Assembly (NCBI RefSeq): GCF_964355755.1
Contig: NC_092671.1
Coordinates: forward strand, 27,381,070-27,445,069
Length of the DNA stretch: 64,000 nt
Reading direction: 5' to 3'
Origin: Antedon mediterranea
Lineage: Eukaryota; Echinodermata; Crinoidea; Comatulida; Antedonidae
Positions 7,821-50,760 of this stretch are shown one piece after another (the stretch's first letter is position 1; the number at the start of each line of letters is the position of its first letter). The notes beneath the pieces are model-generated. The model did no database searches, was not told the origin of the DNA, and saw only the letters and a program-made list of their open reading frames with translations. Made by a program: the position numbers and the translations under genes.

Positions 7821-7826
7821 ATATAG

Positions 7827-7991
7827 ATGCTCGAGAGCCAGTGGCATGAGCTAGATGTCACCTTGTTCCTGGAAAGAAAACAGATGACCGATGCTGTTGA
7901 TGAGAATGAATCAAGGTTTGATAGATTGGTCAAGCAATTGTTACGGGTGCAGAGACAGCATATAAGAGTAAGACGGCCAGACAAAAACTAA
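7827..7991 (+). CDS. Small charged 54-codon ORF, unknown
   Basis: ATG at 7827 opens 54 codons rich in Glu, Asp, Arg and Gln (MLESQWHELDVTLFLERKQM at the start), ending in a basic QHIRVRRPDKN tail before TAA. The composition is less biased than the AT-rich surroundings, as expected of an exon or a transposon-gene remnant. No family is recognised and no adjoining exons are evident. It could equally be chance. Confidence 0.2.
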   Translation: MLESQWHELDVTLFLERKQMTDAVDENESRFDRLVKQLLRVQRQHIRVRRPDKN

Positions 7992-8294
7992 ATATCAGAA
8001 AACCATTCATTGGCGTTATTACACATAAAGCTCAATGCCAGCCATGAGCGAACAAACAGCGAACAATAGCACGCTGTGCATTAAATCCATATGTAATCAC
8101 AGGAGGACCATGCAATATGCTAATTAGCCATGTCACACCCTACCTCTTAAAAAAAGTTTTAAACAGGCTGTAACAGCATGTCTAACAAATTATATTTACT
8201 TAAATGTTAAAAACTTTTCTACTTTAATATTTAAAAATATTCAACAATCGTCATGGTAAACAACAAAAATTATAACAGCTTCTTTATTATATTT

Positions 8295-12869: not shown

Positions 12870-13740
12870 TGATGACGTTATCACGTTTAAAAACTTGAAG
12901 AACGTGAGTCGTGTAATTTCACCTACACCATACAGTTTAATATCTTACAGCTCATCAGAATTAAACGTGCCCTTGAAAATTTTAACTTATTAAGAAAGCT
13001 GATGAAATGTAGATATGAATTCATAAAAAAATTAAGCCGGTCGGATGTTGTGATGTTATCATATGGCCAGTTGAAGTTAAAAAGTAGTTTTTAAATTTCT
13101 TTAGTCAAAGTTATACAAATTTCAAAGAGCGCGCATTGCGCTTCTACGTGTCAAATTCTCTTCCAATTCTTATATTTATTTGCTTAATTCATTATCTTTC
13201 GAAATTGTCATCTTCGAGTTTATTTTGATATATCCATCATACCAAAAAATTATAACATGATGTGTGTCCCGTAATTTCACCTATGCTACACTGTATATAG
13301 ATATACAGTATATACTGTATATTGTATATGGCATATAATAGGCACAACTCAACACTATAAGCATATAATAGGATGGAATGTATCATCATTTTCCGATCGT
13401 ATGATAACGTACGTGCATGTTTAAAACAAATTATTTTCAGTAATTTATTAATTAATTTCAGTAAAATGATAAAAATGATCACCTATAATTCGTCAAAGTG
13501 ACGAATTAAATTCTAGTTTCTTTTTGTAATTCTTTAACCTTTAGTTCATTAAATGACTTTTGGTTTATAATCTATGAACAATCATTAAAATTCATAAAAT
13601 TGCGCATAAGTCACATTGCGCAACTCTGACATTAAAAAATAGGAGGTGCACAAGTTCACGTAAATGTTGTTCTGTTTACACGTTTTAGAGACACGCGACG
13701 CACAAAAATGACAGAAGGAAAGAAGCATAATACAGGAAAA
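12870..13740. other. Intergenic, no recognisable gene
   Basis: AT-rich. Contains a hairpin AATTCGTCA-AAG-TGACGAATT at about 13488-13508 and ATATACAGTATATACTGTATA-type palindromic DNA near 13300. The open frame at 13237-13482 is low-complexity and unsupported. Confidence 0.4.
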
Positions 13741-14217
13741 GATGATGAAACAGGACAGTTACAAGGAGTTATCCGCTACTAAGCGGATAACTAATAATAC
13801 AGAAAAAAAGATGATTTCATACAGTTACAAAGAGTTATCCGCTGAATGTGGATAACTAATGATTTCATACAGTTACAAGGAGTTATCCGCTGAATGCGAA
13901 TAACTAAAAAAAAAGATGATGAAACAGGACAGTTACAAGGAGTTATCCGCTACTAAGCGGATAACTAACTAGACGTGAAACCCGTCACTTTGACGAGTTA
14001 GTTATCCGCTCGACAAACGCCACGTGCACATCATGAATTTTGCACACAGAAAAAGATTATTATGACCTGAACTGAAGAATATGATGTGATGTTAGTGCTG
14101 AATGCTGTATATTTTGTGTCGTATAGTATACACAGTATAATCTGTATAAATATCACAAACAGTGTAAAATATCTGAAAACTAAAAAAGTAACAGGACGAT
14201 TACAAGGAGTTATCCAC
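13741..14217. repeat. Hairpin-rich GTTATCCGC minisatellite (left flank)
   Basis: Irregular repeats of TACAAGGAGTTATCCGC separated by AAAGATGAT. Two exact copies of a hairpin with stem AGTTATCCGCT/AGCGGATAACT and loop ACTA lie at 13767-13792 and 13941-13966; less perfect copies lie between them. The same motifs resume at 32109-32200 and 32640-32690, on the other side of the 17.9-kb element, so the array was probably continuous before that insertion. Confidence 0.75.
14209..14217. repeat. Left 9-bp target site duplication GTTATCCAC
   Basis: GTTATCCAC directly abuts the GGGTATTGC end and is repeated exactly at 32109-32117 after GCAATACCC. Nine-base duplications are characteristic of MULE-family transposition. 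Confidence 0.85.
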
Positions 14218-17200
14218 GGGTATTGCTAAACTGCGCAAACACTGCGCAAACAACAAAAAAAGCTGCGCAAACCTCCTTCAAACCAATTAATATTTATTAG
14301 AACACAACTAGAACTATATAGGGAGACAATTTATGAGAAAAAAAATTTGAAATCCCTTTAAGTTTGCCTTTTTTGGTGTGAAAAACTTCAATTTTTGGGA
14401 AAATTACTGATTTCACAGCGCAAACAACAAAAAAAGCTGCGCAAACCTCCTTCAAACCAATTAATATTTATTAGAACACAACTAGAACTATATAGGGAGA
14501 CAATTTATGAGAAAAAAAATTTGAAATTCCTTTAAGTTTGCCTTTTTTTTTGGTGAAAAACTTCAATTTTTGGGAAAATTACTGATTTCACAGCGCAAAC
14601 AACAAAAAAAGCTGCGCAAACCTCCTTCAAACCAATTAATATTTATTAGAACACAACTAGAACTATATAGGGAGACAATTTATGAGAAAAAACATTTGAA
14701 ATTCCTTTAAGTTTGCCTTTTTTTGTGTGAAAAACTTCAATTTTTTGGAAAATTACTGATTTCACAGCGCAAAGAACAAAAAAAGCTGCGCAAACCTCCT
14801 TCAAAACAATTAATATTGATAGAACACAACTAGAACTATATAGGGAGACAATTTATGAGAAAAAAAAATTTGAAATTCCTTTAAGTTTGCCTTTTTTGGT
14901 GAAAAACTTCAATTTTTGGGAAAATTACTGATTTCACAGCGCAAACAACAACAAAAAGCTGCGCAAACCTCCTTTAAATCAATTAATATTGATTAAAACA
15001 CAACTAGACCTATATAGGGAGACAATTTATGGGGAAACAAATTTGAAATTCCTTTAAGTTTGCCCTTTTTTTGGGTGAAAAACTTAAATTTTTGGGAAAA
15101 TTACTGATTTCACAGCGCAAAAAAAAAAAAAGCTGCGCAAACCTTCTTTAAATCAATTAATATTGATTAAAACACAACTAGACCTATATAGGGAGACAAT
15201 TTATGGGGAAAAGAATTTGAAATTCCTTTAAGTTTGCCTTTTTTTGTGCGAAAAACTTCAATTTTTGGGAAAATTACTGATTTCACAGCGCAAAGAACAA
15301 AAAAAGCTGCGCAAACCTCCTTCAAAACAATTAATATTGATAGAACACAACTAGAACTATATAGGGAGACAATTTATGAGAAAAAAATTTGAAATTCCTT
15401 TAAGTTTGCCTTTTTTTGGGTGAAAAACTTCAATTTTTGGAAAAATTACTGATTTCACAGCGCAAACAACAACAAAAAGCTGCGCAAACCTCCTTTAAAT
15501 CAATTAATATTGATTAAAACACAACTAGACCTATATAGGGAGACAATTTATGGGGAAACAAATTTGAAATTCCTTTAAGTTTGCCTTTTTTTTGGGTGAA
15601 AAACTTCAATTTTTGGGAAAATTACTGATTTCACAGCGGAAAAAAAAAAAGCTGCGCAAACCTTCTTTAAATCAATTAATATTGATTAAAACACAACTAG
15701 ACCTATATAGGGAGACAATTTATGGGGAAAAAAATTGGAAATTCCTTTAAGTTTGCCTTTTTTTTTGTGAAAAACTTCAATTTTTGGGAAAATTACTGAT
15801 TTCACAGCACAAATAACAAAAAAAGCTGCGCAAACCTCCTTCAAAACAATTAATATTGATAGAACACAACTAGAACTATATAGGGAGACAATTTATGAGA
15901 AAAAAAATTTGAAATTCCTTTAAGTTTGCCTTTTTTTGGGTGAAAAACTTCAATTTTTGGGAAAATTACTGATTTCACAGCGCAAACAACAACAAAAAGC
16001 TGCGCAAACCTCCTTTAAATCAATTAATATTGATTAAAACACAACTAGAACTATATAGGGAGACAATTTATGAGAAAAAAAATTTGAAATTCCTTTAAGT
16101 TTGCCTTTTTTTGGGTGAAAAACTTCAATTTTTGGGAAAATTACTGATTTCACAGCGCAAACAACAACAAAAAGCTGCGCAAACCTCCTTTAAATCAATT
16201 AATATTGATTAAAACACAACTAGACCTATATAGGGAGACAATTTATGGGGAAAAAAATTTGAAATTCCTTTAAGTTTGCCCTTTTTTGGGTGAAAAACTT
16301 CAATTTTTGGGAAAATTACTGATTTCACAGCGCAAACAACAACAAAAAGCTGTGCAAACCTCCTTCAAACCAATTAATATTGATTAAAACACAACTAGAC
16401 CTATATAGGGAGACAATTTATGAGAAAAAAAAATTGAAATTCCTTTAAGTTTGCCTTTTTTTTGGTGAAAAACTTCAATTTTTGGGAAAATTACTGATTT
16501 CACAGCGCAAACAACAAAAAAAGCTGGGCAAACCTCCTTCAAACCAATTAATATTTATTAGAACACAACTAGAACTATATAGGGAGACAATTTATGAGAA
16601 AAAAAATTTGAAATTCCTTTAAGTTTGCCTTTTTTTGTGTGAAAAACTTCAATTTTTGGGAAAATTACTGATTTCACAGCGCAAAGAACAAAAAAAGCTG
16701 CGCAAACCTCCTTCAAAACAATTAATATTGATAGAACACAACTAAAACTATATAGGGAGACAATTTATGAGAAAAGAAATTTGAAATTCCTTTAAGTTTG
16801 CCTTTTTTTGGTGAAAAACTTCAATTTTTGGGAAAATTATTGATTTCACAGCGCAAACAACAACAAAAAACTGCGCAAACCTCCTTTAAATCAATTAATA
16901 TTGATTAAAACACAACTAGACCTATATAGGGAGACAATTTATGGGGAAACAAATTTGAAATTCCTTTAAGTTTGCCTTTTTTTTGGGTGAAAAACTTAAA
17001 TTTTTGGGAAAATTACTGATTTCACAGCGCAAAAAAACAAAAAGCTGCGCAAACCTTCTTTAAATCAATTAATATTGATTAAAACACAACTAGACCTATA
17101 TAGGGAGACAATTTATGGGAAAAAGAATTTGAAATTCCTTTAAGTTTGCCTTTTTTTGTGCGAAAAACTTCAATTTTTGGGAAAATTACTGATTTCACAG

Positions 17201-17870
17201 CGCAAACAACAAAAAAAGCTGCGCAAACCTCCTTCAAACCAATTAATATTGATTAAAACACAACTAGACCTATATAGGGAGACAATTTATGGGGAAAAAA
17301 ATTTGAAATTCCTTTAAGTTTGCCCTTTTTTTGGTGAAAAACTTCAATTTTTGGGAAAATTACTGATTTCACAGCACAAACAACAACAAAAAGCTGCGTA
17401 AACCTCCTTCAAAACAATTAATATTGATTAGATAACAACTAGAACTATATAGGGAGACAATTTATGGGAAAACAAATTTGAAATTCCTTTAAGTTTGCCT
17501 TTTTTTTGGGAAAATTAAAGATTTCACAGATTTAAAGGCCTGCGCATACCCCCAAAAAAGCTGCGCAAACCTCCTTCAAATCAATTAATATTGATTAGAT
17601 AACAACTAGAACAATATAGGGAGACAATTTAGAAAAACATTTTGAAATTGCTGTAAGTTTGCCTTTTTTTTTTAAATTAAAAAATTTAAATTACAGATTT
17701 CACAGATGTCAAGGTTTGCGCACACTGCGCAAACACCAAAATAAGCTGCGCAAAAGAACACAACTAGAACTATATAGGAAGACAATTTATGAAAAAACAA
17801 TATTGAAATTCCTGTAAGTTTGTCTTTGTTTGGGTAAAACAATTTTTGGGAAAATTACAGATTTCACAAC
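14218..17870 (+). repeat. Left arm: ~174-bp tandem array (~21 units)
   Basis: Unit starts (CACAGCGCAAA) fall at about 14414, 14589, 14763, 14935, 15111 and 15284 and onward at 172-176-bp spacing. Each unit has GCTGCGCAAACCTCCTT, then AATTAATATTGATTA, then TATATAGGGAGACAATTTAT, then TTTAAGTTTGCC, then ATTTTTGGGAAAATTACTG. Subtypes alternate in a pattern (see findings). The innermost units (17500-17870) are the most diverged, and the outermost is the cleanest. No coding potential. Confidence 0.95.
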
Positions 17871-18011
17871 GGAAACTTTAAAAAAACAGAAACAAGAAAA
17901 AATTTTTTTTTCAAATATAACTTTTTTTAATGAAATGTTTCGCAATTATTTACCTTCAAAGTTTTTTTATAACATTCTACTGTATTTTCAAATCAACATA
18001 AAGCTTTACAT

Positions 18012-20257
18012 TTACAATGCTCTTTTTTCTTTTTTTCTGGTTTTGTTAGCCCTTTTTGAAGTATTTTGTCCCTTTTTTTTGCCACTAGTATATGGAGGAT
18101 TAGTTGTGGACAACTGTCCATTTGTGGAGGTAGTAACATTTTCCTTTTTAATTTTCGGTACGAATTGAGAAAACTTATAAAAGTGTGCATTTCTTTCTTC
18201 TTCAGTCATCGAGCTCCACATTAATTGATCGAGTTCAAATTTCTTAAAATCATTTGATAGTTTGTATCCTCCCATATTTACAAAAGACATTTTAACGTCT
18301 TTATATTGACCCGTAACCATTTTTTCCAACATAAGAACTAAATCCGGCAGTTTCTTTTGCTTCCAGTCTGCAAAGGCTTTAATTGAATGATTCATTGATT
18401 CATTGTTGTTATTTGTCCAACTGCCTATTAATTTCTTGTGCCAAAGCTTTTCCTTTAATTTCGGAATCATCTTATTCGTGTAATCCAGTGCATCTGGTAC
18501 AACATTACCAACAAATTCTCGTAGTAAATTTTCTGTTATTGCAAAAGATTCTTCTAAATTTGTGTTGAGCAATTGTATTACTTTTTTATGTATAGAGGTT
18601 CTTACATTTCTTGCATATTTTCAAGCATGTGTTTTCTGCATAAGACATGTTTACAATGGAAAGTGTCCACAAATGCTTTGTGCATAGCCAATTCGTCATC
18701 TGTTCCTACTATCAAATTACTAAAATCTTTAACGCCAATACTTATCAAATTATACTTAAGAAAATAGTAAAATTCCGCAAAGGCTAATTGGTCGCTCTTA
18801 TGGTGAAGTAACATAGGGCCAAAAAAAACTGGATGTTCATTGTCCATTTTAGTGACAGATAGGTTTTTATAGACCATAAGCGTAAGATAGGTTTTGCCTA
18901 AATTGAAGGTTTTGTCAATGCCCAAAACAGTTTTTCCAGAGCAACAAAACCGTTTAATGTCATTAAGTTGTTCTTTTGCGAAAAGCACAAATGCAGGTGC
19001 TTGGCCTTTGATGAATACCGTTTTTTGTAGAAAATCATTTTCTGTCAACATGTTGAGAACTTCTAATACTTCATCAGCGTAATTTTGAGTGTATGGTTTA
19101 CAACGACAACATTTGCTGTTCCTTTTATCGTTTTGTTTTAAGTTATAAATTTGCTTTCTATTCCGTAGTTCATCTTGAGTGTCTCTATATGTTTCGGATG
19201 GAGTTTTAAAGTGGCATTGATTCCTTACTTTATTAAGAATTTCAGGGTCTGTCCTTACATATGATTGATTGTATTTAGAGTTCCCGTGTGGTGCAGTTAC
19301 GTTTAACACTCCTCTGTATTCGTGAACAGCTACATATTTTCCATTTATTGTGTCATCAATGTAAGTAATTTTCCGTTCGTAATTGGTGGCACGTTTCTTA
19401 GAATAATAGCGATGGACATTAATAGTTCTAGCATCACCTTCCACAACTAACTCGGTGTACTTTTGAATTTTACCCTTTTTCTTGGTTTTTTTGTAAAATC
19501 TCCCATCATCTATCTTGTCAACAAATATTAAAGTATTGCTATTATTTACCAAATATGTATGTTTCACCTTTGAATTCCGTTGCCAGGCACCACAATCATC
19601 GTTAAACACATTGTTTCCATTCGTTTGCATTTTTCTTAAAACAACACAATAAGCATTATTCTTGACACCTTTAGGCACAGATTGTAATGGAATTGAGGAA
19701 TTCATTTCCTCCCAAATGTTTTCAATATTTAAAAATACACCATTTTGTAGTTCTTTTAAATCACCTTTGATGTTAACTGTACTTCTGTTACTATCATCAC
19801 TGGTAACATCTTGATGACTCTCCTTGTAGCTTTCACCATTGTCGTCGCTATCATTGTTAGTGTCTATACCGCTGTTGCACGTTTCATCATTTGCGAAATT
19901 GGAAGTATCATTGTCGTCGTTATCTTCTCTTGTAACATTTGTTTCATTGTTAGTGTCTATATCGCTGTTGCACGTTTCATCATTTGCGAAATCAGAAGTA
20001 CCATTGTCGTCGTTATCTTCTCTCGTAACATTTGTTTCATTGTTAGTGTCTATATCGCTGTTGCACGTTTCATCATTTGCGAAATCAGAAGTATCATTGT
20101 CGTCGCTATCTTCTGTTGTTTCATTCATTTCATTGTTAGTGTCCAAATCGCTGTTTAATGTTCCACCATTTGCGAAATCAGAAGTATCATTGTCAACATC
20201 ACTTGTGAGAGCATCCACGTCGACTTGCATTATATTTGGTTCATTGTCAGTTTCCAT
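18012..20257 (-). CDS. MULE-family DDE transposase (frameshifted)
   Basis: ATG at 20257 opens 551 codons to a stop at 18602; the protein continues in another frame to 18012 (about 195 more codons). A single-base frame change lies near 18605-18613, giving roughly 745 residues in total. Residues 22-140 are an acidic Asn/Asp/Thr linker of four ~31-residue repeats (NDTSDFAN...). A CCRCK cluster precedes the catalytic core. The core has LGIDKTFNLGKTYLT (first Asp, residue 448), HPVFFGPMLLH, LIVGTDDE (second Asp, 520 or 521) and the Cys/His pair CRKHMLEN. The downstream frame supplies WTNNNNESMNHSIK, whose Glu fits the third catalytic residue. A lysine-rich tail ends it. The order and motifs are those of MULE transposases. 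It acts on the ends of the 17.9-kb element by inference; the frameshift probably inactivates this copy unless it is an assembly error. Confidence 0.85.
19842..20195 (-). repeat. ~93-bp coding minisatellite in transposase N-terminus
   Basis: Four copies of an about 31-codon unit (consensus around SDFANDETCNSDIDTNNET) repeat in frame within the transposase. Two neighbouring copies are almost identical at the DNA level. Both strands stay open across it, which explains the long but spurious plus-strand frames there. It probably forms a flexible acidic linker and varies in length between copies. Confidence 0.85.
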
Positions 20258-22796
20258 ATCTTCATTCTCCGTTTTAATAACACAATCAGCATTCCAAAAA
20301 ACTGTTAAAGCAAAACAAATGTAAAATAAGATACAGTATTTAAACTACAAAACTGTAAAATTAATTTTATGAACAGTTTGTGGCAATTTGCTGAATTTAT
20401 GATTCATTTTTTGTTTAGAGACATTCTGCAAGCTGTGGGCCGCGGCCAAGAAACATTTTTTTAAGAGCCATGAGGTGACTTTGAATTTAAAAATTAAAAA
20501 AATTAAATAAAGAAGACAATAATGGGCAATACTCCTGTCACATGTTTGACATTCACAAAAACAATTTTAGCCACCGTAAAGTGCCTTTATTTAAAAGGAA
20601 TACAGTATGTGTTGGGACCTTCGGGCTAAGCTTAATTTCTTGTGGTCAAATATAAACATTAAAAACTAAACAAACATTACATGAGGGTCACTTCTTATAT
20701 TGAGGCGCTATAAAGATTGAAATATAATGTATAAATAAAAATGACCAACGTTAATTAGAATCCAATAATAGTTTTAAAACACAGCTCAATGCCAAAGGAA
20801 AACAGATTTAATTAATAATTAGTGCATTGCCCGCAATGATTTTGTTGACAACCACATCACACTGAATTTTGCCTGTCTGTCTGTAACTAGGTATCCCAAT
20901 GAAAGCGCACCGAGGGGTATCACTTTTGAAATATTGACGAAATTCGAAAAAGTAGTATGACTTTGATGTTAAATAAATCGTATTCAGTCTTAATTAATAC
21001 TTACAAAATTTATATTGTTTGAAAGTACTTGTTTTAATCTATGTATAAGTGTGTTTATAATTAAAATTAATGAATTAGTTGCCGAGAAAATGCGATTTTA
21101 AAACGGTTCTAAAATCCCGTCGAGCCGATTTCCGCGCGTTGAAAACCTCATCGGAAAATCCCCATCAGTTTTCAAAACACGATCGCACGATTACCATTGG
21201 AGCTAGCGGATTAATTTTTGTTGTATGTTATCAGGCTTTAAATAAGCTTTAATTTGATACGAAAATCGTCTTCTATAAATAGGTTTTTCGTAACGAAAAG
21301 TCATTTTTTGTGACAAAAATCCAATTTTGATTCACCGTTTATGGAAAAATATTATGGATTTTGGTATTAAATTATAGCTAAATCTACATTGAAATCGATA
21401 AAACATAGTTTACAAACGTATTGTGCATGGTAATTGAGCGAACTACATTTTAAAATGGTGCATGAGGCGTAAATCCCGTTCAAAATTTTAAAGATCCAAC
21501 CATTATAATCCGGTGAATATTGTAGTGAGTAAAATATTGTACTCTAAAATACGCGCGTGTTTGTTGTGGCGTTTTCCGTTAAATACATTAATGCACCCTA
21601 TCAGCGAATGGTACGTTCCATATTTTGAACACGTTGTTTAGTTTTCCTCGCTCGAGTTCGACCGGCTCGACGCGAGATGTGTGACAGCAGCGATGTCGGA
21701 GATTGACATGTCCTTTTCCGTCGTAGAATATCTGGTTTTACACATTAATTTAACAACTTAAAATTGATGTAATGTGCGGAAGATTTATTATGCAAGTATA
21801 CAATGCAAATGCGTTAGGTTAAAATGAAATTTATTAAGCTAATTTACCAACGTTACATTTGACTCTGTATACGGCGGCCGAAAGTCATTAACTGCGACCG
21901 AAATACTTTAACGGAGCGACTACTGATCGCGAGTAAGCCTTGACTTGGCCTAAACTTTAGCTCCGTATTTCAATTTAATAACGTAATAATACGAAAAGAA
22001 AACAATTTTTATAATGTTATATATACTATTCAGGTAAACAATTAATTGTTTTAATTAACATTGATTATTTTAAATGAGTTTATTTTGACCCATATTGTGC
22101 GTTTGCCTTAAAAGAGCATATCTTACTTAGCAGCCCGGCTTAGATTTGGTGACATAATCATATGGGCCTAAAATCTTGTTTTACGTATTCAAAAGTTATA
22201 TATAATAGTATTTATGATTGAAATTATAAATATAAAGTATATTAAAATATTCTAATAATTATACTTACCGAAAAATAGTGTAAAAGAAAAGAAACAGTAC
22301 ACACCGTTTTTAACATACTTTTTCATTTTTTCTTTTTATAATTTTAAATTTCACCATTACAAAATTTTTTTTTTTTCATATACACATCTAAAATATATTT
22401 ATTAATGAAATATACACTACATTCTAACAAGTACAAAAAAAATTAAATGAATTAGTACAGTAGTTCAAAAGTTACAGATCATTGAAAAATAGCAGTTTTT
22501 TCATTTTTTAGGGAATTCCAGCAAAAATGGGCGTTAAATGCTTTCCTACCACTTTGCGGACCAATAATTTAAAAAATAGGTTTCGTTGAGGCTCCAAAAA
22601 AAATAGAGTTGTACAACTCTGTGATATCTATAGGTTTAACAAAATTCAAAACTTTTAACTAATTATTGTAAAAGTTATAACCTTTTAAAAATGCTTCCAA
22701 TTTCAACTGCAAAAAACACCATTTTTAGGCAAAAAATCGTATATTTTTTTACCACTTTAAATAACCATAACTTTAGAACGGGTAATCGGATTTCAA
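20258..22796. other. Internal non-coding region of the giant element
   Basis: No open frame with a recognisable domain. It lies upstream of the transposase start and downstream of the OTU gene, so it should hold the transposase promoter and the OTU 3' end. A CpG-richer patch lies at 21640-21960. GGTATCCCAATGAAA near 20890 recurs in reverse complement at 22876-22890 in the tail of the last OTU exon. Confidence 0.5.
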
Positions 22797-25700
22797 TCAT
22801 TTAAATCGCAAAATGCTAATTACATTAAGTTCTTTATGGTTAACTGAAAGAAAATGTAAAAAAATTAATCTGAATTTTTTCATTGGGATACCTACTGTAA
22901 CACCTCTTCCAACTATCTTTTTTGTGCAAATTCTGCTGTAAGAATCCTTCTCTGACAATGGTGGTCTAACACATGTAAATGAAATCCTTAAAGCAGCACT
23001 AACAGCATACATTTCAAGCATTGACGCCCATTGTCCTAGTTGTGCCACATGCATGCCTATGTTCTCACTGTGGGTAATTATTGGCCATAAACTTTGTAGA
23101 GCTGGTAGCATGAAACGCGGGTCTGTTGTGTTATACAGAGGTGAATGTTCCATAATTTCTAAGACAGTTATAAGTCTCACATAAGGATGGTGTTCTTCAG
23201 AACCAAACATTCCCAGTGAAACAGCTCGAAAGAAACAATTTCCATCGCCTTGTGTGCACATAGGATTTGAATCTTCACCAGTTAGTTGAAACATGAGTTT
23301 CCGTGCCTGCACATCTATGGATAACTCTTGAACAGGAGCAATCTAGTAAGATGTAAAGTTTAAAGTTACTAACATAAACATTTATTATTCACTGGGTGGC
23401 CAGCATGACCAGACACCTATGCCAAATTTTACGATCAAAATGGATTTACAGTACATGTACATTATTATATTATAGGTGCATTCCACAGTACTGTAATTGA
23501 CATAATTAAAAAATAGGCATACTTCAGAATTTATTTCATGTCAAAGATTGAAAATGCAAATGTTATGCCGTAATCATCTATATATAAATTTACGTAAGGG
23601 CAAAATTCGGTAAATCGCGCCTTACTTCTAGAATTTTTACTCGATGGTATGTAAAGTTGGTTCGTACTTTCGGTACTGATTTTAACCACCTGATGTAACC
23701 CTATTTACTAATTAAATTAAGTTAGATAATTAGTTATTGACGATTAAAACGAATTTAGGTTCAACGATTTGTCCCAAATAGGGGTGTTTCCCGATCGTGG
23801 TATACACTGTCTAATGGATGTCCATCTTGAAAAATACCTGCCACAAAAATGCGAGGAGGCTTCGCATTTTCCTATCTCCTCCTACGATAATTGTTTTTAA
23901 TAGCTGAAAACCGGTTGAACAGCTAGAGTACAGCATCATAATGTTGAAGACAGGCCGATTTTCTTTAAAAAATACTATTTTGATAGATTTAATATACGAT
24001 TATACAAATGTATTGATTTGCGGTGAATGGAACATCCCCATCTCTCAGTCTGCCAGAGTTTGGTTTAACACAAGTAGGTAAATTTATGAGCCCTTGGTTT
24101 AACACATACGGTAGGTAAATATATGGGCCCTTTGAGAATAAACTTGCAATACTTTGACAATACTGTAAATACCTATTAACTATTTTTGGTCCTCATTTGA
24201 ATCGAACATTTCTTACTGTGAATGTTCGTACTGTTAGATGTAATATAAAAATATATACAAATAAACTTTATTACTGAGATTGTGGTTAGGCTCTACTGTT
24301 AGATATATAAACACATTATTATATACAAATAAACTTTATACTGACAGTTCCCTGTCGACGTTTGTATTAATTATTAATTAATAATTACCAATAATATAAA
24401 CGTCGTAGTGGTGTATTACTCCATGGTGTATCGTGACATGTACTTTAATATTTCAATCAATTATGACAGTGACAGTTTTAACAAAGTATTAAATCGCAAA
24501 TGTTTTACTGTATTTAGAGGTATATTATTTATAGGCCTATAAAACATGAACAAAATATTTCGTTACTGAGTGGATAAAGAATATATTTAAAAATTGTTCC
24601 TCTTTGTACCTATCCGCTTTCCCATCCCTCAAACCTAATGTTACATACAAAACACAAATTGGGTTTCTTTAAATGAGTCCAAATCAACAATTTGGACTCA
24701 TTTTGTGATAAGTTTCTCCTTCGGAAGTAATTCTCAGGGTGCTAATTTTAGTTGACTACATAAATCATCGTGTCTATTTATTCGTTTCTGTAAACGACAA
24801 TGTATTATATAATAGTACATTTGAAATCGCCAGTTTTGTTACGCTGAAATTGCTGTGTATTCGAGAACCATCTGTGGGCACGACCTAGATGGTACGCAGC
24901 GAAGTGAGCGTACCATCTAGGAGACATAATTACATTTAAATATTGCCTATATTTGTTTATTAGTAAATTATATATGTTTATTAGATGTACTTTTTATGAT
25001 TTGTGATGGTTTTAGAAAATGTCCTCTAAATATATCATAATTCCTGTCCTAAATCTTAATTGTACTGCAGTAAATTTTTTTAGTTTCCATCAGTAAAATC
25101 CAATTTCATATCCTTGAGTTTACTATGCTATATTTCGAAAATATACATTTACAATTATAATAATAACTTCATAATACAACGTTACGGTTTTGACCGGCAT
25201 TACATAATGCCCAAGGGCATTACACGTGAAAAAAAAAAGAGTTTTACTTAAATTGTAAAGGGAAACGTAATATAGGATTATTACACATCATTTTAGTTTT
25301 TACAATACAAAGATTAAAATTTTAGGAGTAGATCCAATTTTGCCCTTTTTTAATTCCCACTAAAAAAAGATGTATTTAAATAGTCATTTGAATGAAATAT
25401 GATAATATTATTTATTATTTTGTTATCTGTTGTTACTAGAGACAAATTTAATTTTAATGTGTCAGTCACATTTAAATATTTTCATACCTACTCAAACTTC
25501 AATATAAGCAATAATTAAAGTTTCATTGATCAGATATAGCAAATTAAACTTTAAAAGTGTAAAGTCTGTGGTTAAAAAATACTGTGATTATATCAACATT
25601 TAAAATACTGTATTAATACATATGCTGAATTGCCCATATTCAAATCTGATACTATAGAAAACAATTCTTTTAACAAAAAAGCATTAGAAAAGCCTACATA

Positions 25701-26261
25701 CCTTAGGCAAGTAATCCTTATTCTTCTGTAGTAATGTCCTTTCAGATTGCCAAATTGTCTCTCCATTTCGGATTTGCCTTAAAGCGGATAAGCTGTCATA
25801 AAGTCCGTCAACAATGTATGGGTTTTCGATCTTTCTCCTTTTCCGAAATTGAGGTCCACGTCCCTTCTTGAACCGCTTGGTTCTAAACACTGACCAACTA
25901 TATGAATACACAACATTTATGTCAATTAATGCTTGTTAGTTTATAAATGACAAACTTAACAATTTATACTAAATATTAATAAAAGTACTAAATAAAGTAC
26001 ATACTGTACTGTAATACTTTTTTATCTACGTTTTTTATGTTTAATTGTACGTTCGCAGTAATACTGTAGGTCTTAAATCCCTAGACCTTCTTTAAAGTAC
26101 AGTATATATATTTATACTGTCCTATACTTACTTACTATTATTACACACATTAGTGTACGTGTTATACCAAAACAGCAATATCATATATATAATTACATAT
26201 TTTAGCTAGCAATATAATTGGAAAAAAAGTAGTAGAAGATAATTTACCTTTCATGATCCAT
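22797..26261 (-). CDS. OTU-domain cysteine protease gene, three predicted exons
   Basis: Predicted minus-strand exons: 26261-26248 (ATG GAT CAT GAA AG, then GTAAAT donor), 25897-25702 (after a TATAG acceptor, ending AAG before a GTATGT donor) and 23342-22797 (after a TTACTAG acceptor). Intron phases agree (2, then 0), giving about 251 residues. Exon 2 encodes a basic RFKKGRG/RKRRKIENPY segment and LRQIRNGETIWQSERTLL. Exon 3 carries CTQGDGNCFFRAVSLGMFG, the Asp-Gly-Asn-Cys nucleophile motif of OTU deubiquitinases, with Cys near residue 106. A clear catalytic His near the C-terminus is missing, and the last ~30 residues look repeat-derived, so another 3' exon or a truncation is likely. The gene lies between the arms, on the transposase strand, and I infer it is carried by the element. 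Its true substrate is unknown. Confidence 0.7.
23577..24920 (+). mobile_element. Helitron-like element copy 1
   Basis: Starts A|TCTATATATAAATTTACG at 23577 and ends in a 13-bp-stem hairpin (CTAGATGGTACGC, loop 24898-24907, GCGTACCATCTAG) finishing CTAG at 24920. There is no terminal inverted repeat. A TC start after A and a CTAG end with a hairpin fit Helitrons, though here the hairpin is terminal rather than about 10 bp inside, so it may be a variant. It has no coding capacity and is therefore non-autonomous. It sits inside the second intron of the OTU gene, and a second copy lies inverted at 53426-55000. Confidence 0.75.
24921..25683. other. OTU gene intron 2, remaining part
   Basis: AT-rich non-coding DNA between the Helitron end and exon 2. 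Nothing recognisable. Confidence 0.4.
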
Positions 26262-26277
26262 GTCTATAACTGGCAAC

Positions 26278-26683
26278 AGTTATCAGAAGTTAAAACAGCA
26301 GCAAAAAATAAGTTTTATGAGGAACGTCAGCAGTAGTTGTATTCAAAATAATCGTAAGCGATGTTTAACAGTTGAGAAAGTTATCAGAAGTTAAAACAGC
26401 AGCAAAAAATAAGTTTTATCAGGAACGTCAGCAGTAGTTGTATTCAAAATAATCGTAAGCGATGTTTAACAGTTGAGAAAGTTATCAGAAGTTAAAACAG
26501 CAGCAAAAAATAAGTTTTATCAGGAACGTCAGCAGTAGTTGTATTCAAAATAATCGTAAGCGATGTTTAACAGTTGAGAAAGTTATCAGAAGTTAAAACA
26601 GCAGCAAAAAAATAAGTTTTATCAGGAACGTCAGCAGTAGTTGTATTCAAAATAATCATAAGCGATGTTTAACAGTTGAGAAA
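26278..26683. repeat. 101-bp tandem repeat, four copies, upstream of OTU start
   Basis: AGTTATCAGAAGTTAAAACA begins units at 26278, 26379, 26480 and 26581 (exact 101-bp steps, the last with one extra base). Copies are nearly identical. The array begins 17 bp upstream of the predicted OTU start codon, so it occupies the promoter/5' leader position. Confidence 0.95.
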
Positions 26684-26689
26684 TCAAAA

Positions 26690-26924
26690 TGAAATGGGGC
26701 AGATACAGCTTGTTTTACTTAGTTATACTCATTATAGGTTTTGATGCATTGTTTATGGAATAATTGTTTTTTTTACTGTAGGTGTCTGAACACCTTTCAT
26801 TGTTTTAAATAATAAGGCCATGTACATGTATTGTACGCCCTTCAAAAAGCTAACCTTAATTCAAAGGATAGCACAACTAATAATTTAAATTCATCACTTT
26901 CAATAATCAAACCTAAATGAATAA
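26690..26924. other. Spacer between 101-bp repeats and right arm
   Basis: No gene or repeat recognised. Confidence 0.4.
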
Positions 26925-29900
26925 ATTTCAAATTTTTTTTTCTCATAAATTGTCTCCCTATATAGTTCTAGTTGTGTTCTATCAATATTAATTGTTTTGA
27001 AGGAGGTTTGCGCAGCTTTTTTTGTTCTTTGCGCTGTGAAATCAGTAATTTTCCCAAAAATTGAAGTTTTTCACCCAAAAAAAGGCAAACTTAAAGGAAT
27101 TTCAAATTTGTTTTCCCATAACTTGTCTCCCTATATCTAGTTGTGTTTTAATCAATATTAATTGATTTAAAAAAGGTTTGCGCAGCTTTTTTTTTTTTTG
27201 GGCTGTGAAATCTGTAATTTTCCCCAAAAATTGAAGTTTTTCACCAAAAAAAAAGGGCAAACTTAAAGGAATTTCAAATTTGTTTCCCCATAAATTTTCT
27301 CCCTATATAGGTCTAGTTGTGTTTTAATCAAAATTAATTGATTTAAAGGAGGTTTGGGCAGCTTTTTTTGTTGTTTGCGCTGTGAAATCAGTAATTTTCC
27401 CAAAAATTGAAGTTTTTCACCCAAAAAAAAGGCAAACTTAAAGGAATTTCAAATTTGTTTCCCCATAAATTGTCTCCCTATAGGTCTAGTTGTGTTTTAA
27501 TCAATATTAATTGATTTAAAGGAGGTTTGCGCAGCTTTTTGTTGTTGTTTGCGCTGTGAAATCAGTAATTTTCCCAAAAATTGAAGTTTTTCACCCAAAA
27601 AAAGGCAAACTTAAAGGAATTTCAAATTTTTTTTCTCATAAATTGTCTCCCTATATAGTTCTAGTTGTGTTCTATCAATATTAATTGTTTTGAAAGAGGT
27701 TTGCGCAGCTTTTTGTTGTTTGCGCTGTGAAATCAGTAATTTTCCCAAAAATTGAAGTTTTTCACCCAAAAAAAGGCAAACTTAAAGGAATTTCAAATTT
27801 TTTTTCTCATAAATTGTCTCCCTATATAGTTCTAGTTGTGTTCTATCAATATTAATTGTTTTGAAGGAGGTTTGCGCAGCTTTTTTTGTTCTTTGCGCTG
27901 TGAAATCAGTAATTTTCCCAAAAATTGAAGTTTTTCACCCAAAAAAAGGCAAATTTAAAGGAATTTCAAATTTGTTTTCCCATAACTTGTCTCCCTATAT
28001 AGGTCTAGTTGTGTTTTAATCAATATTAATTGATTTAAAAAAGGTTTGCGCAGCTTTTTTTTTTTTTGCGGTGTGAAATCAGTAATTTTCCCAAAAATTG
28101 AAGTTTTTCACCTAAAAAAAAGGCAAACTTAAAGGAATTTCAAATTTGTTTCCCCATAAATTGTCTCCCTATATAGGTCTAGTTGTGTTTTAATCAATAT
28201 TAATTGATTTAAAGGAGGTTTGCGCAGCCTTTTGTTGTTGTTTGCGCTGTGAAATCAGTAATTTTCCCAAAAATTGAAGTTTTTCACCCAAAAAAAAGGC
28301 AAACTTGAAGGAATTTCAAATTTGTTTCCCCATAAATTGTCTCCCTATATAGGTCTCGTTGTGTTTTAATCAATATTAATTGATTTAAAGGAGGTTTGCG
28401 CAGCCTTTTGTTGTTGTTTGCGCTGTGAAATCAGTAATTTTCCCAAAAATTGAAGTATTTCACCCAAAAAAAGGCAAACTTAAAGGAATTTCAAATTTGT
28501 TTTCCCATAACTTGTCTCCCTATATAGGTCTAGTTGTGTTTTAATCAATATTAATTGATTTAAAAAAGGTTTGGGCAGCTTTTGTTGTTTGCGCTGTGAA
28601 ATCAGTAATTTTCCCAAAAATTGAAGTTTTTCACCCAAAAAAAGGCAAACTTAAAGGAATTTCAAATTTTTTTTCTCATAAATTGTCTCCCTATATAGTT
28701 CTAGTTGTGTTCTATCAATATTAATTGTTTTGAAGGAGGTTTGCGCAGCTTTTTTTGTTCTTTGCGCTGTGAAATCAGTAATTTTCCCAAAAATTGAAGT
28801 TTTTCACCCAAAAAAAGGCAAACTTAAAGGAATTTCAAATTTTTTTTCCCATAACTTGTCTCCCTATATAGGTCTAGTTGTGTTTTAATCAATATTAATT
28901 GATTTAAAGGAGGTTTGCGCAGCCTTTTGTTGTTGTTTGCGCTGTGAAATCAGTAATTTTCCCAAAAATTGAAGTTTTTCACCCAAAAAAAAGGCAAACT
29001 TAAAGGAATTTCAAATTTGTTTCCCCATAAATTGTCTCCCTATATAGGTCTAGTTGTGTTTTAATCAATATTAATTGATTTAAAGGAGGTTTGCGCAGCT
29101 TTTTTTGTTCTTTGCGTTGTGAAATCAGTAATTTTCCCAAAAATTAAAGTTTTTCACCCAAAAAAAGGCAAACTTAAAGGATTTTCAAATTTTTTTTCTC
29201 ATAAATTGTCTCCCTATATAGTTCTAGTTGTGTTCTATCAATATTAATTGTTTTGAAGGAGGTTTGCGCAGCTTTTTTTGTTCTTTGCGCTGTGAAATCA
29301 GTAATTTTCCCAAAAATTGAAGTTTTTCACCCAAAAAAAGGCAAACTTAAAGGAATTTCAAATTTTTTTTCCCATAACTTGTCTCCCTATATAGGTCTAG
29401 TTGTGTTTTAATCAATATTAATTGATTTAAAGGAGGTTTGCGCAGCCTTTTGTTGTTGTTTGCGCTGTGAAATCAGTAATTTTCCCAAAAATTGAAGTTT
29501 TTCACCCAAAAAAAAGGCAAACTTGAAGGAATTTCAAATTTGTTTCCCCATAAATTGTCTCCCTATATAGGTCTAGTTGTGTTTTAATCAATATTAATTG
29601 ATTTAAAGGAGGTTTGCGCAGCCTTTTGTTGTTGTTTGCGCTGTGAAATCAGTAATTTTCCCAAAAATTGAAGTTTTTCACCCAAAAAAAGGCAAACTTA
29701 AAGGAATTTCAAATTTTTTTTCTCATAAATTGTCTCCCTATATAGTTCTAGTTGTGTTTTAATCAATATTAATTGATTTAAAAAAGGTTTGCGCAGCTTT
29801 TTTTGTTCTTTGCGCTGTGAAATCAGTAATTTTCCCAAAAATTGAAGTTTTTCACCCAAAAAAAGGCAAACTTAAAGGAATTTCAAATTTGTTTTCCCAT

Positions 29901-32108
29901 AACTTGTCTCCCTATATAGGTCTAGTTGTGTTTTAATCAATATTAATTGATTTAAAAAAGGTTTGCGCAGCTTTTTTTTTTTTTGCGCTGTGAAATCAGT
30001 AATTTTCCCAAAAATTGAAGTTTTTCACCCAAAAAAAGGCAAACTTAAAGGAATTTCAAATTTGTTTTCCCATAACTTGTCTCCCTATATAGGTCTAGTT
30101 GTGTTTTAATCAATATTAATTGATTTAAAAAAGGTTTGCGCAGCTTTTTTTTTTTTTTGCGCTGTGAAATCAGTAATTTTCCCAAAAATTGAAGTTTTTC
30201 ACCCAAAAAAAAGGCAAACTTAAAGGAATTTCAAATTTGTTTCCCCATAAATTGTCTCCCTATATAGGTCTAGTTGTGTTTTAATCAATATTAATTGATT
30301 TAAAGGAGGTTTGCGCAGCCTTTTGTTGTTGTTTGCGCTTTGAAATCAGTAATTTTCCCAAAAATTGAAGTTTTTCACCCAAAAAAAGGCAAACTTAAAG
30401 GAATTTAAAATTTTTTTTCTCATAAATTGTCTCCCTATATAGTTCTAGTTGTGTTCTATCAATATTAATTGTTTTGAAGGAGGTTTGCGCAGCTTTTTTT
30501 GTTCTTTGCGCTGTGAAATCAGTAATTTTCCCAAAAATTGAAGTTTTTCACCCAAAAAAAGGCAAACTTAAAGGAATTTCAAATTTTTTTTCTCATAAAT
30601 TGTCTCCCTATATAGTTTTAGTTGTGTTCTATCAATATTAATTGTTTTGAAGGAGGTTTGCGCAGCTTTTTTTGTTCTTTGCGCTGTGAAATCAGTAATT
30701 TTCCCAAAAATTGAAGTTTTTCACCCAAAAAAAGGCAAACTTAAAGGAATTTCAAATTTGTTTTCCAATAACTTGTCTCCCTATATAGGTCTAGTTGTGT
30801 TTTAATCAATATTAATTGATTTAAAAAAGGTTTGCGCAGCTTTTTTTGTTCTTTGCGCTGTGAAATCAGTAATTTTCCCAAAAATTGAAGTTTTTCACCC
30901 AAAAAAAGGCAAACTTAAAGGAATTTCAAATTTGTTTTCCCATAACTTGTCTCCCTATATAGGTCTAGTTGTGTTTTAATCAATATTAATTGATTTAAAA
31001 AAGGTTTGCGCAGCTTTTTTTTTTTTTTGCGCTGTGAAATCAGTAATTTTCCCAAAAATTGAAGTTTTTCACCCAAAAAAAAGGCAAACTTAAAGGAATT
31101 TCAAATTTGTTTCCCCATAAATTGTCTCCCTATATAGGTCTAGTTGTGTTTTAATCAATATTAATTGATTTAAAGGAGGTTTGCGCAGCCTTTTGTTGTT
31201 GTTTGCGCTGTGAAATCAGTAATTTTCCCAAAAATTGAAGTTTTTCACCCAAAAAAAGGCAAACTTAAAGGAATTTCAAATTTTTTTTCTCATATATTGT
31301 CTCCCTATATAGTTCTAGTTGTGTTCTATCAATATTAATTGTTTTGAAAGAGGTTTGCGCAGCTTTTTGTTGTTGTTTGCGCTGTGAAATCAGTAATTTT
31401 CCCAAAAATTGAAGTTTTTCACCCAAAAAAAGGCAAACTTAAAGGAATTTCAAATTTTTTTTCTCATAAATTGTCTCCCTATATAGGTCTAGTTGTGTTT
31501 TAATCAATATTAATTGATTTAAAAAAGGTTTGCGCAGCTTTTTTTTTTTTTTGCGCTGTGAAATCAGTAATTTTCCCAAAAATTGAAGTTTTTCACCCAA
31601 AAAAAAGGCAAACTTAAAGGAATTTCAAATTTGTTTCCCCATAAATTGTCTCCCTATATAGGTCTAGTTGTGTTTTAATCAATATTAATTGATTTAAAGG
31701 AGTTTTGCGCAGCCTTTTGTTGTTGTTTGCGCTGTGAAATCAGTAATTTTCCCAAAAATTGAAGTTTTTCACCCAAAAAAAAGGCAAACTTAAAGGAATT
31801 TCAAATTTGTTTCCCCATAAATTGTCTCCCTATATAGGTCTAGTTGTGTTTTAATCAATATTAATTGATTTAAAGGAGGTTTGCGCAGCCTTTTGTTGTT
31901 GTTTGCGCTGTGAAATCAGTAATTTTCCCAAAAATTGAAGTTTTTCACCCAAAAAAAGGCAAACTTAAAGGAATTTCAAATTTTTTTTCTCATAAATTGT
32001 CTCCCTATATAGTTCTAGTTGTGTTCTAATCAATAATAATTGTTTTGAAGGAGGTTTGCGCAGCTTTTTTTGTTGTTTGCGCAGTGTTTGCGCAGTTTAG
32101 CAATACCC
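26925..32108 (-). repeat. Right arm: ~174-bp tandem array (~30 units)
   Basis: The same unit as the left arm in reverse complement (GGAGGTTTGCGCAGC...). Units are mostly 170-177 bp and very similar to each other. The outermost unit mirrors the left terminus base for base for about 65 bases. It is longer than the left arm by about nine units, so the arms have changed copy number independently. Confidence 0.95.
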
Positions 32109-32117
32109 GTTATCCAC
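32109..32117. repeat. Right 9-bp target site duplication GTTATCCAC
   Basis: Exact match to 14209-14217, directly after the GCAATACCC terminus. Confidence 0.85.
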
Positions 32118-32660
32118 TGATAATACATTAAAAAAAAAAATGATGATCCCATACAATAACAAGGAGTTATCCGCCAAGCATTAGTGTACAGCCCCATTAG
32201 AGAATGTGTTTTTGAAAAACTTCGGGTAAATGTCACTTAACCTCCTACTGTGACATGTGTTTATATAAGGGGCCGTTTACGAACAGCAAGTATCCGGATA
32301 ACTTGTCATCTTTTGATAACTAGAAGTCTGTAAACGGTAGGGAGAATTTTGATTTAGCCTTGTCAGGAGAGACCTCTGGCGTATCCAGATACTTTAAATG
32401 TTCATAAACACAACCTAAGTCCAACTTTGATAGGCAGGTCGTTAAGCCTTCTGCTAGTTTTTGCCTGACCATTGACCTTGCATACTGAAGAATGTACCTT
32501 GTCCTAATCAATCAATTACAAGAGAGCTAATAAAATCACAGGGGTATAATAGGATTCAGGTCATTAATCACCTGCTTAGTTTATTTATCTGATAAGGATT
32601 TTGACCAAAAAGTTCTAATGGGGATGTACACCTAATGAGTGTGGATAACTAAGCGGATAA
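32118..32660. repeat. Right remainder of GTTATCCGC minisatellite and unassigned DNA
   Basis: TAACAAGGAGTTATCCGCC at about 32157-32175 and GGATAACTAAGCGGATAACT at about 32643-32662 match the left-flank array. Between them, GGCCGTTTACGAACAGC (about 32271-32287) and GTCTGTAAACGGTAGGG (about 32326-32342) form a short inverted pair. The open frame at 32320-32511 is unassigned. Confidence 0.55.
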
Positions 32661-33670
32661 CTAAAAAAAATGATGATCCCATACAATAAGGATCTTGGCT
32701 TTATTAACATATTGGAGCTTATCAGTTCCCAAGTGTATGTCAACGTGTGAAGGTTGGGTAGAACTGAAACACGCCTTAAGGGCTTGACATTTTTTGGGGT
32801 TAAGCACTAAACAATTGTTGTTACACCAGCGGAAAAAAAAATTAAGATCATCTTGTAAAAAAAACCAGGCAATGAGAGTCAGTTTTTTGCAGGTGTCTAA
32901 CTCTATCTGCATTAAATTTTACTTTAGCTTTAAAGATTTCCCTCTTGACTTTGTTTCTGCAAGCTTTCCAATGGGTTAAGTTATTGGATTTCAACGCTTT
33001 TTGGCGTTCAGAAATAGAATTTCTGATATTTTGTGTTAGCCAAGGTTTATCAGTATTGTGCGTTTTAATATTTTTTAACGGGAAAAACTTATTAATAGCA
33101 GTGATCAGTTTGTAATAGAAAGCATCAACTTTACTCTGTGTAGAAATGCAGCTATAAATATCATTCCAATTCTGAGATACAATCCAGGTGCCAAATGATC
33201 TTATTCTGGTATCATATAAGGGACGAACACTTATAGATTTGACAACATTTTTGATAGCTTGAACTTTAGGTTTCCATAAAATACAGATGTGGTCACTAAA
33301 ACCAATAGGAGACATCGCTTCCGGGGTATGGTATTTAGTTTCAAAATTAGTCAAGATGAGGTCTAATGTAGCAAGTTCACGGGTTGGAAAATTAACAATT
33401 TGTTTTAAACAGTTATTACGTAAAATGTAGTTAATGTTCATTCTGTTGAAATCGCCCATAATGCAAAAACCAGTCTCAGTGATCTAGAACGAATAAGGTC
33501 AATCGTTTCACAAATATGCCGCTCAAGAAGAAGTTGATATGGGGAGTCTGTTGTGTACTTGAACACCTTGCTGCATATGCTACAATGCCAATTAACATTG
33601 ATATGTCTCTTGTCGATCTTAGTATTGTATTGGTAGCCATCACTATCAAATAAACATAGCCTGTCAAAGA
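32661..33670 (-). pseudogene. LINE remnant: endonuclease end joined to RT tail
   Basis: Minus-strand fragments. The endonuclease C-terminal half carries MGDFNRMNINY, PTRELATLDLILTN and GFSDHICILW (33459-33200). An inter-domain linker follows, with KPWLTQNIRNSISERQKALK. A post-YADD RT piece (32912-32661) carries DDLNFFFRWCNNNCLVLNPKKC. The catalytic palm is missing, so the copy has an internal deletion. More endonuclease sequence in other frames continues up to 33670, where it abuts a copia fragment. Confidence 0.8.
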
Positions 33671-35969: not shown

Positions 35970-36146
35970 AATCTCGACTTGGAAGCAAACAACAACGGAT
36001 AAAAATAAGATATAACTCAACAGTGTTACATGAGAACTTGAACTACAGTTTATTCAGAACTTGTATTATAATATATGTACAGTACAATTAAATGTGATTG
36101 GTCAGTTAATAATCAGAAAAGAGGTGGGCATTCCACCTATCATAGT

Positions 36147-50400: not shown

Positions 50401-50760
50401 TAAACTCCGAACATGGTCCACCTTATTATAGAGACTTCTGACATTTAAATGACCAATTTTAAAACCCTTTGTACAATCAGTCTCGCATAATTTGCATAGT
50501 ATGCCAAAAGCAGGATAAACAATAGAGTCGTTACGTAATTCAGCGTCGTCTACGTCGTTGTCTAAAAGGCTTCCCGTACGATGTTCGTTTAACAATTGAA
50601 TTGGTTTAAATGGTTTATTACATGCGTTACAAATAAAATCTAAAATCATCTTATCTACATAAAATACAATACAAATTTAGGACATTTAAAATTCTCTTAC
50701 ACATTACCTTTTACATTTAGGTAATTGTTTAAGATCGGAAGTTCTGGATTTTATTATTGT
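47438..50760 (-). mobile_element. LINE B: nearly intact non-LTR retrotransposon
   Basis: Minus-strand element with a 5' leader (about 50760-50650), an 852-codon ORF and a 3' end with a conserved-looking GGGCCCCTCGGAAGAGC...GAGAGGGCTACCC stretch and a poly(A) tract at about 47440-47453. The next bases, GTCGTCATT (plus strand), resemble GTCGTTATT beyond the 5' end, a possible imperfect target duplication. It separates the endonuclease and RT parts of LINE A, so it probably inserted into LINE A. Confidence 0.75.
47654..50649 (-). CDS. LINE B endonuclease-reverse transcriptase (two frameshifts)
   Basis: The ORF at 50649-48091 has an N-terminal Cys-rich region (CNACNKPF; CKLCETDC), then an apurinic-type endonuclease: HLNVRSLYNKVDHV (67-80), SETWL (95-99), VVGDLNWNIF (197-206), ISDHSLIYAI (262-271). 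The linker carries PWLTDEF. The reverse transcriptase follows: NNYRPISVIP (561), FLDLKKAFDTVDH (632-644), GVPQGSILGPLLF (690-702), YADDTALF (722-729) and the YLGLTFDEQLSW thumb. A frame change in a T-run near 48100 and another near 47930 lead into DYCSTVWGTGS and, finally, SSLWNGLPYELRK. Only these two lesions separate it from an intact ORF. Clade: CR1/jockey group, not resolved further. Confidence 0.9.

Follow-up and report, generated by a model that had tools for sequence, protein, structure and literature searches.

A giant foldback-type Mutator-like element with satellite arms and an OTU-like gene in the crinoid Antedon mediterranea

Organization of the locus

The 64,000-nucleotide stretch of the Antedon mediterranea genome analysed here (NC_092671.1, positions 27,381,070 to 27,445,069, forward strand; hereafter the window, located on contig C2 of the 354 Mb and 18 contigs searched) contains a giant foldback-type Mutator-like element (MULE). 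Its two inverted arms are satellite arrays, and the core between them encodes a transposase, interrupted by a frameshift, and an exon for an ovarian tumour (OTU)-like cysteine protease. In window coordinates, the features are as follows.

14209..14217: left target-site duplication GTTATCCAC, 9 bp
14218..32108: whole element, 17,891 bp, delimited by end sequences, border comparison and genome-wide copies
14218..14282, + strand: left terminal inverted repeat (TIR), 65 bp, perfect, with three GCGCAAAC motifs
14240..17670, + strand: left arm, 174-bp unit x 19.8 (Tandem Repeats Finder, TRF)
18012..18620, - strand: transposase frame 2, 202 amino acids (aa), C-terminal part with a TNNNNES motif (list of open reading frames, alignment)
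18602..20344, - strand: transposase frame 1, 580 aa from stop to stop (list of open reading frames, alignment with relatives)
22797..23342, - strand: OTU-like cysteine protease exon with a GDGNC motif, domain incomplete (PF02338)
25684..25935, - strand: candidate coding exon upstream of the OTU-like exon and in the same gene, with a donor-like site, GTATG (by eye)
26924..32086, - strand: right arm, 174-bp unit x 29.7, inverted (TRF)
32044..32108, - strand: right TIR, 65 bp, perfect
32109..32117: right target-site duplication GTTATCCAC, 9 bp

A preliminary description of this locus had claimed a 17.9-kb element with identical inverted ends, an exact 9-bp duplication on both sides and two inverted tandem arrays of one ~174-bp unit. 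Each of these features was recovered, the ends as a perfect 65-bp TIR, the duplication as GTTATCCAC at 14209-14217 and 32109-32117, and the arrays both by TRF and by alignment, so that the observation of a giant foldback MULE with satellite arms is confirmed, and its earlier interpretation as a member of the foldback-like MULE class is supported.

Borders, arms and the repeated motif

The TIR opens with GGGTATTGC, and GTTATCCAC abuts it directly at both borders, the only two places in the window where this 9-mer occurs on the + strand. The 9-mer alone could mislead because several GTTATCCGC repeats are present in the flanking DNA. When the flanks are joined with a single 9-mer, the junction is spanned by an alignment to a local repeat at 13873-13950 (80% identity, E 1e-13), which represents a paralogous empty site. 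Since the joined flanks match this repeat and the termini recur elsewhere in the genome with different duplications, the ends of the element are clearly not due to chance, judging by these alignments. The insertion site itself lies amid short hairpin-like repeats of the form AGTTATCCGC...GCGGATAACT (13737-13968 and 32135-32690), perhaps a small inverted-repeat element.

The arms show the defining organization of foldback elements, namely, long inverted arrays of direct tandem repeats (174 bp x 19.8 and x 29.7). Degenerate similarity extends the left arm to about 17886, so that the arms are ~3.6 and 5.2 kb long; the longest alignments between them cover more than 3 kb at ~91-93% identity. The motif GCGCAAAC is distributed with a nearly complete strand asymmetry: there are 30 occurrences on the + strand and one on the - strand of the left arm (14218-17880), 43 on the - strand and none on the + strand of the right arm (26906-32108), and none in either the 9 kb core or the 46 kb of flanking DNA, where base composition predicts ~0.5. 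The consensus arm unit holds two copies of the motif, and exact copies average ~1.5 per unit. We infer that GCGCAAAC is a putative transposase-binding site. Monomers diverge by 4.9% and 4.2% inside the two window arms, by 5% between the arms and by ~5-8% from those of other copies; element-specific homogenization of the arms (concerted evolution) was sought in this comparison, to which other copies contributed one to nine monomers per arm, and was not seen.

Copies of the family in the genome

The preliminary description had named further copies ending in GGGTATTGC as a check, and such copies are abundant: the 23-base terminus has 217 forward and 211 reverse matches at up to three mismatches, against 0 and 0 for the reversed control. 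About a hundred places were listed, including all 57 exact matches, and the remainder were only counted. By hand count, 40 of the 57 exact ends form 20 facing pairs; borders were inspected for these and for two further pairs among the matches listed, in which one end is exact and the other has a single mismatch. Of these 22 pairs, eight (C7:9.02-9.22 Mb) share flanking bases and were counted as one insertion, which leaves 15 independent insertions. Exact duplications, in the size range of 8-11 bp typical of MULEs, flank 14 of these: ten are of 9 bp (the window, J018 [L031+L018, 3,540 bp], L015, L067, L068, L071, L079, L052, L058 and the C8 pair L069/L070), and four are of 8 bp (L037/L038, L050/L051, L080 and the C7 cluster); the remaining insertion, L086, has none. 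These different exact duplications contradict segmental duplication alone as the route of spread.

The same-terminus copies span 544 bp to 17.9 kb. Interiors were analysed for 13 of them, a set that includes L081 and L082 of the C7 cluster and leaves aside the C8 pair, L037/L038 and L050/L051. TRF arrays of 172-176-bp units are present in 12 of the 13, near both ends in ten and as a single array in two (L068 and L052); L080 has no TRF array, and its arms match those of the window at about 70%. Unit counts vary between copies (e.g., 12.8/5.8 and 6.8/5.9). L067 and L086 also carry kilobases of other sequence, and the remaining analysed copies besides the window consist mainly of arm; no second coding copy close to full length was detected in these searches, whose counts are lower bounds. 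Two segments of the window core are retained elsewhere.

19211..19427: 217-bp transposase scrap kept at L014, L015 and L018 (J018), with identical deletion junctions
20874..22899: core stretch carried by L067 (9,752 bp, contig C10), 97.7% identity in a 2,036-bp alignment

The scrap is 97-99% identical to the window sequence in all three copies, which share both the scrap and its deletion junctions; therefore a single internal-deletion derivative has reached at least three sites, with exact duplications at two of them (L015 and J018). L067 additionally contains two nested smaller elements with the same terminal bases (L067:4073-4613 and 7669-8198), each flanked by GGTTTGCG, a string that also occurs in the arm unit.

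On contig C7 (9008673-9216106), an arm-rich insertion with unchanged flanking bases recurs at eight places spaced by ~20-40 kb, apparently as a segmental-duplication cluster. L081 and the four copies compared with it are identical over the 100 flanking bases on either side. The lengths fall into classes of 1,663-1,664 and 1,927 bp, with one copy of 2,383 bp. Because these copies share flanks yet differ in length, their arms have changed length after insertion, unless the assembly is at fault.

A sister group (L072-L078) shares the first 14 terminal bases and has the terminus GGGTATTGCTAAAC followed by A/C-CCGCAAAC or a close variant. Among the matches listed, all on contig C1, five of the seven sister pairs have exact 8-bp duplications and two have none; in three of the four copies analysed inside, a 175-bp unit forms arrays with a copy number of only two to three.

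The transposase

The two overlapping transposase frames align consecutively with the relative P0004 and with the same-genome open frames L004 (651 aa) and L009 (706 aa). Frame 1 comprises an acidic N-terminus with 93-bp repeats, a region conserved in the relatives, and the motifs GIDKTF, TDDELA and CRKH, whereas frame 2 matches the C-terminus of L004, L009 and P0004. Through this alignment, the motif order D, D, CxxH, NxxES can be traced across the two window frames; these motifs we take to be catalytic. The acidic N-terminal repeat consists of 3.7 tandem copies of a 93-bp (31-aa) unit (19851-20194, TRF). A single frameshift separates 20344-18602 from 18620-18012 and interrupts the transposase, at a position that an older relative, L013 (79% DNA identity), reads through. 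The window copy accordingly lacks an intact transposase frame, the mark of an autonomous element, and, because of the frameshift, has probably lost its own activity.

The MULE profile PF10551 matches L004 (5.2e-6, 27.3 bits), L009 (1.4e-5, 25.9 bits) and P0004 (5.7e-5, 23.9 bits), so that the MULE assignment is supported by the relatives rather than directly by the window frames. No Pfam match to FLYWCH, SWIM or PHD domains was found in the window transposase or in the relatives scanned. With the full-length protein as the query, one relative was retrieved, the search words having probably been exhausted by the acidic N-terminal repeats; a trimmed two-row alignment, with the best 8,000 candidates scored, yielded six relatives from the protein collection, five of them new and one labelled Mytilus edulis. 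In its own genome, the transposase has at least 28 matches. Among these, no family member other than the window copy is nearly full-length, and the remaining matches at 74% identity or above are broken or partial copies and scraps. A scan of viral and genome contigs, from which own-genome records were possibly excluded, gave 5 and 28 pattern-matching stretches, respectively, and none was confirmed; a search of solved structures with the transposase gave no useful match. The AlphaFold model of P0004 is weak (mean pLDDT 58.7, pTM 0.39), with pLDDT mostly of 70-90 in an N-terminal beta-rich region (~residues 45-205), and no conclusion rests on it. Two related frames of 855 and 874 aa (L026 and L027) end in C-x-C...C-x-H, presumably resembling a SWIM finger.

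The OTU gene and cousin families

The match of the OTU exon to PF02338 (1.4e-6) is confined to positions 1-84 of the 128 in the profile. The segment 25684-25935 is a candidate upstream exon, as suggested by splice-like sites and a donor phase that fits the OTU exon. Among 19 candidates from the protein collection, none qualified as a relative of the OTU exon at E 0.01, and the matches of the exon among solved structures, OTUD7B and OTUD1, are weak (E about 0.01). Its similarity to OTU proteins encoded next to other MULE transposases in the same genome is low (29% identity over 66 aa, E 2e-6, for the L004 family; 32% over 44 aa, E 8.6e-6, for a third family, L010). OTU-carrying MULEs are represented by the partial PF02338 match in the window and by PHD+OTU frames at two cousin loci.

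The first cousin family (L004-L008) consists of five copies that are 99.95-100% identical over the 4.2 kb compared. Comparison of L033+L004+L034 with L035+L007+L036 reveals a shared 13.9-kb repeat, 99.86% identical, that holds the PHD+OTU gene, the 651-aa open transposase frame and 10-bp repeats at the right end; at the borders of this repeat, neither a TIR nor a target duplication was seen. The OTU protein is encoded by a 365-aa frame that lies within the repeat, shares the strand of the transposase and is situated upstream of it; this frame has profile matches to OTU (4.7e-5, 24.3 bits against a cut-off of 23.3) and PHD (4.1e-5, 23.9 bits against 24). In the third family (L010, contig C3), a 366-aa frame at the same place is 54% identical to the former over 279 aa and matches PHD above the cut-off (2e-5, 25 bits) and OTU below it (3e-4, 21.7 bits); the C5 copy of this family (L009) has no OTU match within the stretch compared. 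The location of the OTU gene inside a repeated unit is demonstrated for the L004 family only. Because the gene order and strand in the two cousin families match those of the window element, the MULE lineage probably inherited OTU as a partner gene and did not acquire it in a one-off capture.

Proposed mechanism and alternative explanations

The explanation that we consider very probable is that the element is a giant foldback-type MULE in which the arms are putative arrays of binding sites and the OTU protein is an inherited accessory. A DDE transposase would move the element by cut and paste, recognizing oriented GCGCAAAC motifs, of which there are three in the terminus and two in the consensus unit; because the transposase would recognize the repeated motif, each arm would amount to a long series of binding sites. 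The arms would grow and shrink through unequal exchange, gene conversion or slippage, internal deletion would yield elements that are little more than arms, and such arm-only derivatives could be mobilized in trans. The OTU protein, inherited with the MULE lineage, might remove ubiquitin and so protect the transposase or steer repair, which is a guess.

Several observations weigh against this explanation. The claimed MULE-type transposase stands as a MULE through PF10551 in its relatives, but the window copy is frameshifted and its frames match no Pfam family at E values up to 10; even among the relatives, PF10551 is found in three of the seven scanned, each time just under the curated cut-off of 27.6 bits, and the short relatives P0002, P0003, P0005 and P0006 match no Pfam family. 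Likewise, the claimed second gene for an OTU protease is borne out by the PF02338 exon at 23342-22797, but the domain is incomplete, the end with the catalytic histidine not having been located in this exon. The L004 cousin lacks comparable satellite arms. Monomers diverge about as much within one arm as between copies, the conservation of GCGCAAAC could reflect only its position inside an amplified unit, and the motif is missing from all four sister copies analysed inside (L072, L073, L077 and L078). Finally, the complete same-terminus pair L086 and the sister pairs L075 and L078 have no duplication, and L014 has a left end and no right end within the 3.4 kb examined.

Some of these observations would be expected if the arms had no role in transposition, the outermost bases being sufficient and the adjacent unit having been amplified by unequal exchange, a serious possibility to which we nevertheless give less than even weight. 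Arm length indeed varies without loss of mobility, as duplications accompany copies ranging from 0.5 to 17.9 kb, and the sister group has duplicated target sites with short arrays that lack GCGCAAAC. What such passive amplification leaves unexplained is that the motif is nearly fully strand-asymmetric between the arms of the window element, is absent from the core and flanks, and is tripled within the terminus itself. The arms might also chiefly serve to form hairpins, with read-through double-stranded RNA feeding host silencing and arm expansion reflecting the resulting conflict. Two inverted arms of this length and identity could form such a hairpin, and hairpin RNA and small RNAs are discussed for long MULE TIRs in PMC6446971; hairpin formation, however, explains neither the oriented motif nor mobility and is unlikely as the principal role of the arms, although it can be compatible with the arms being binding-site arrays.

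That the OTU exon is a fragment of a host gene captured by this copy in the manner of Pack-MULEs would agree with its incomplete domain, the lack of relatives in the protein collection and the low identity to the cousin OTUs, but two other MULE families of the same genome carry PHD+OTU in the same order and on the same strand, and L067 retains the 3' edge of the window exon, so that such a capture appears quite improbable. Least credible is a misassembly, or ordinary satellite arrays that surround a dead MULE by chance: arrays of this kind are hard to assemble, yet the 65-bp ends and the duplication are exact, a paralogous empty site exists, and the same ends, together with inverted arms, recur in independent copies, which renders this scenario unlikely. 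The giant foldback-type MULE with binding-site arms can be extended to a broader and more tentative proposal, to which we assign slightly less than an even chance, namely, that a MULE lineage with a PHD+OTU deubiquitinase-like partner has turned its arms into a mobile satellite of oriented binding sites. If so, arm expansion itself would make fitter parasites, and elements that are pure satellite could still transpose.

Other features of the window

Two further repeats lie within the element.

23576..24897: dispersed repeat in the interval that separates the OTU exon from its candidate upstream exon, with an inverted copy at 55001-53435 (81-86% identity)
26278..26683: internal tandem repeat, 101 bp x 4, just inward of the right arm (TRF)

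Outside the element, large frames are present at 34034-36053, 48091-50676 and 61371-63166; by eye, these resemble a Copia-type polyprotein and long interspersed elements of the endonuclease-reverse transcriptase kind. Rfam and tRNA scans of the window gave no matches.

Comparison with known systems

FB-NOF combines repeat-built inverted arms made of a short FB unit with a MULE-related coding core and duplications of about 9 bp. By architecture, the window element resembles FB-NOF, as the latter is commonly described, in its repeat-built inverted arms around a MULE-related core and its ~9-bp duplications; it differs in its 174-bp unit as opposed to the short FB unit, in its size of 17.9 kb and in the presence of an OTU gene. 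Marquez and Pritham are said to have described, in 2010, the Phantom group of animal MULEs, some of which reportedly have foldback-like termini. Phantom elements generate 8-10 bp duplications, and aphid members contain a minisatellite (Table 1, PMC6446971); the window element and its relatives differ from them in that the scans gave no FLYWCH or SWIM match. Tm1 of Meloidogyne has foldback-like composite TIRs of variable length and 9-bp duplications, with a Phantom-like transposase in some members and none in others (PMC3169594). Its arm motif, however, is ~14 bp in one to nine units, and the term OTU has 0 occurrences in the accessible text of that paper.

Tetris of Drosophila virilis, probably a foldback MULE, is the closest satellite-armed case in the literature compared: it has long TIRs with ~220-bp tandem units in variable number and 8-10 bp duplications, its arms seed satellite arrays, and the authors found no autonomous copy (PMC4079207). 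Most foldback elements seem to belong to Mutator according to the same source. In contrast to Tetris, which in these texts has no known coding partner, the family described here includes a coding copy, albeit a broken one. A single genome thus offers a coding copy, arm-dominated copies, segmental duplicates of one insertion that vary in length, and cousin families with the same second gene; because these copy types occur together, three questions become testable in one system, namely, whether satellite arms act as binding-site arrays, how a transposon might seed satellite DNA, and why OTU proteases recur in DNA transposons.

The OTU gene also has precedents. MuDR-6_HM of Hydra is listed as a MULE with an ovarian-tumour gene, one open reading frame and no TIR (Table 1, PMC6446971); the likeness to the window element, by this listing, consists in an OTU gene in an animal MULE, and no satellite arms are mentioned for MuDR-6_HM in the accessible text. 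Rehavkus elements make 9-bp duplications and have TIRs of 26-400 bp, with a minisatellite close to one end and a PHD finger in the transposase (PMC6446971). In the Antedon families, by contrast, PHD is found in the OTU protein of the cousins and in none of the window or relative transposases scanned, so that the transposase feature which marks Rehavkus is absent. Transposon-borne OTU domains are also known in Ginger1 and Helentrons (PMC2836005, PMC6431247), and a repair role has been suggested for the OTU-type domains of Ginger1 (PMC2836005). However, the transposases of these elements are different, and the OTU domain of Ginger1 is C-terminal in the transposase, as opposed to a separate gene in the cousins described here.

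The preliminary description knew of no animal element with this combination of features. In the literature searched, no element was encountered that has coding capacity, arms built from satellite units of this length and an OTU gene, nor did a search on both terms find OTU and Phantom together in one paper; the combination is less isolated than that description supposed, as an OTU gene is known from MuDR-6_HM (PMC6446971) and long arm repeats from Tetris (PMC4079207). Altogether, the component features of the Antedon element have counterparts among known mobile elements, and it is their combination that looks new.

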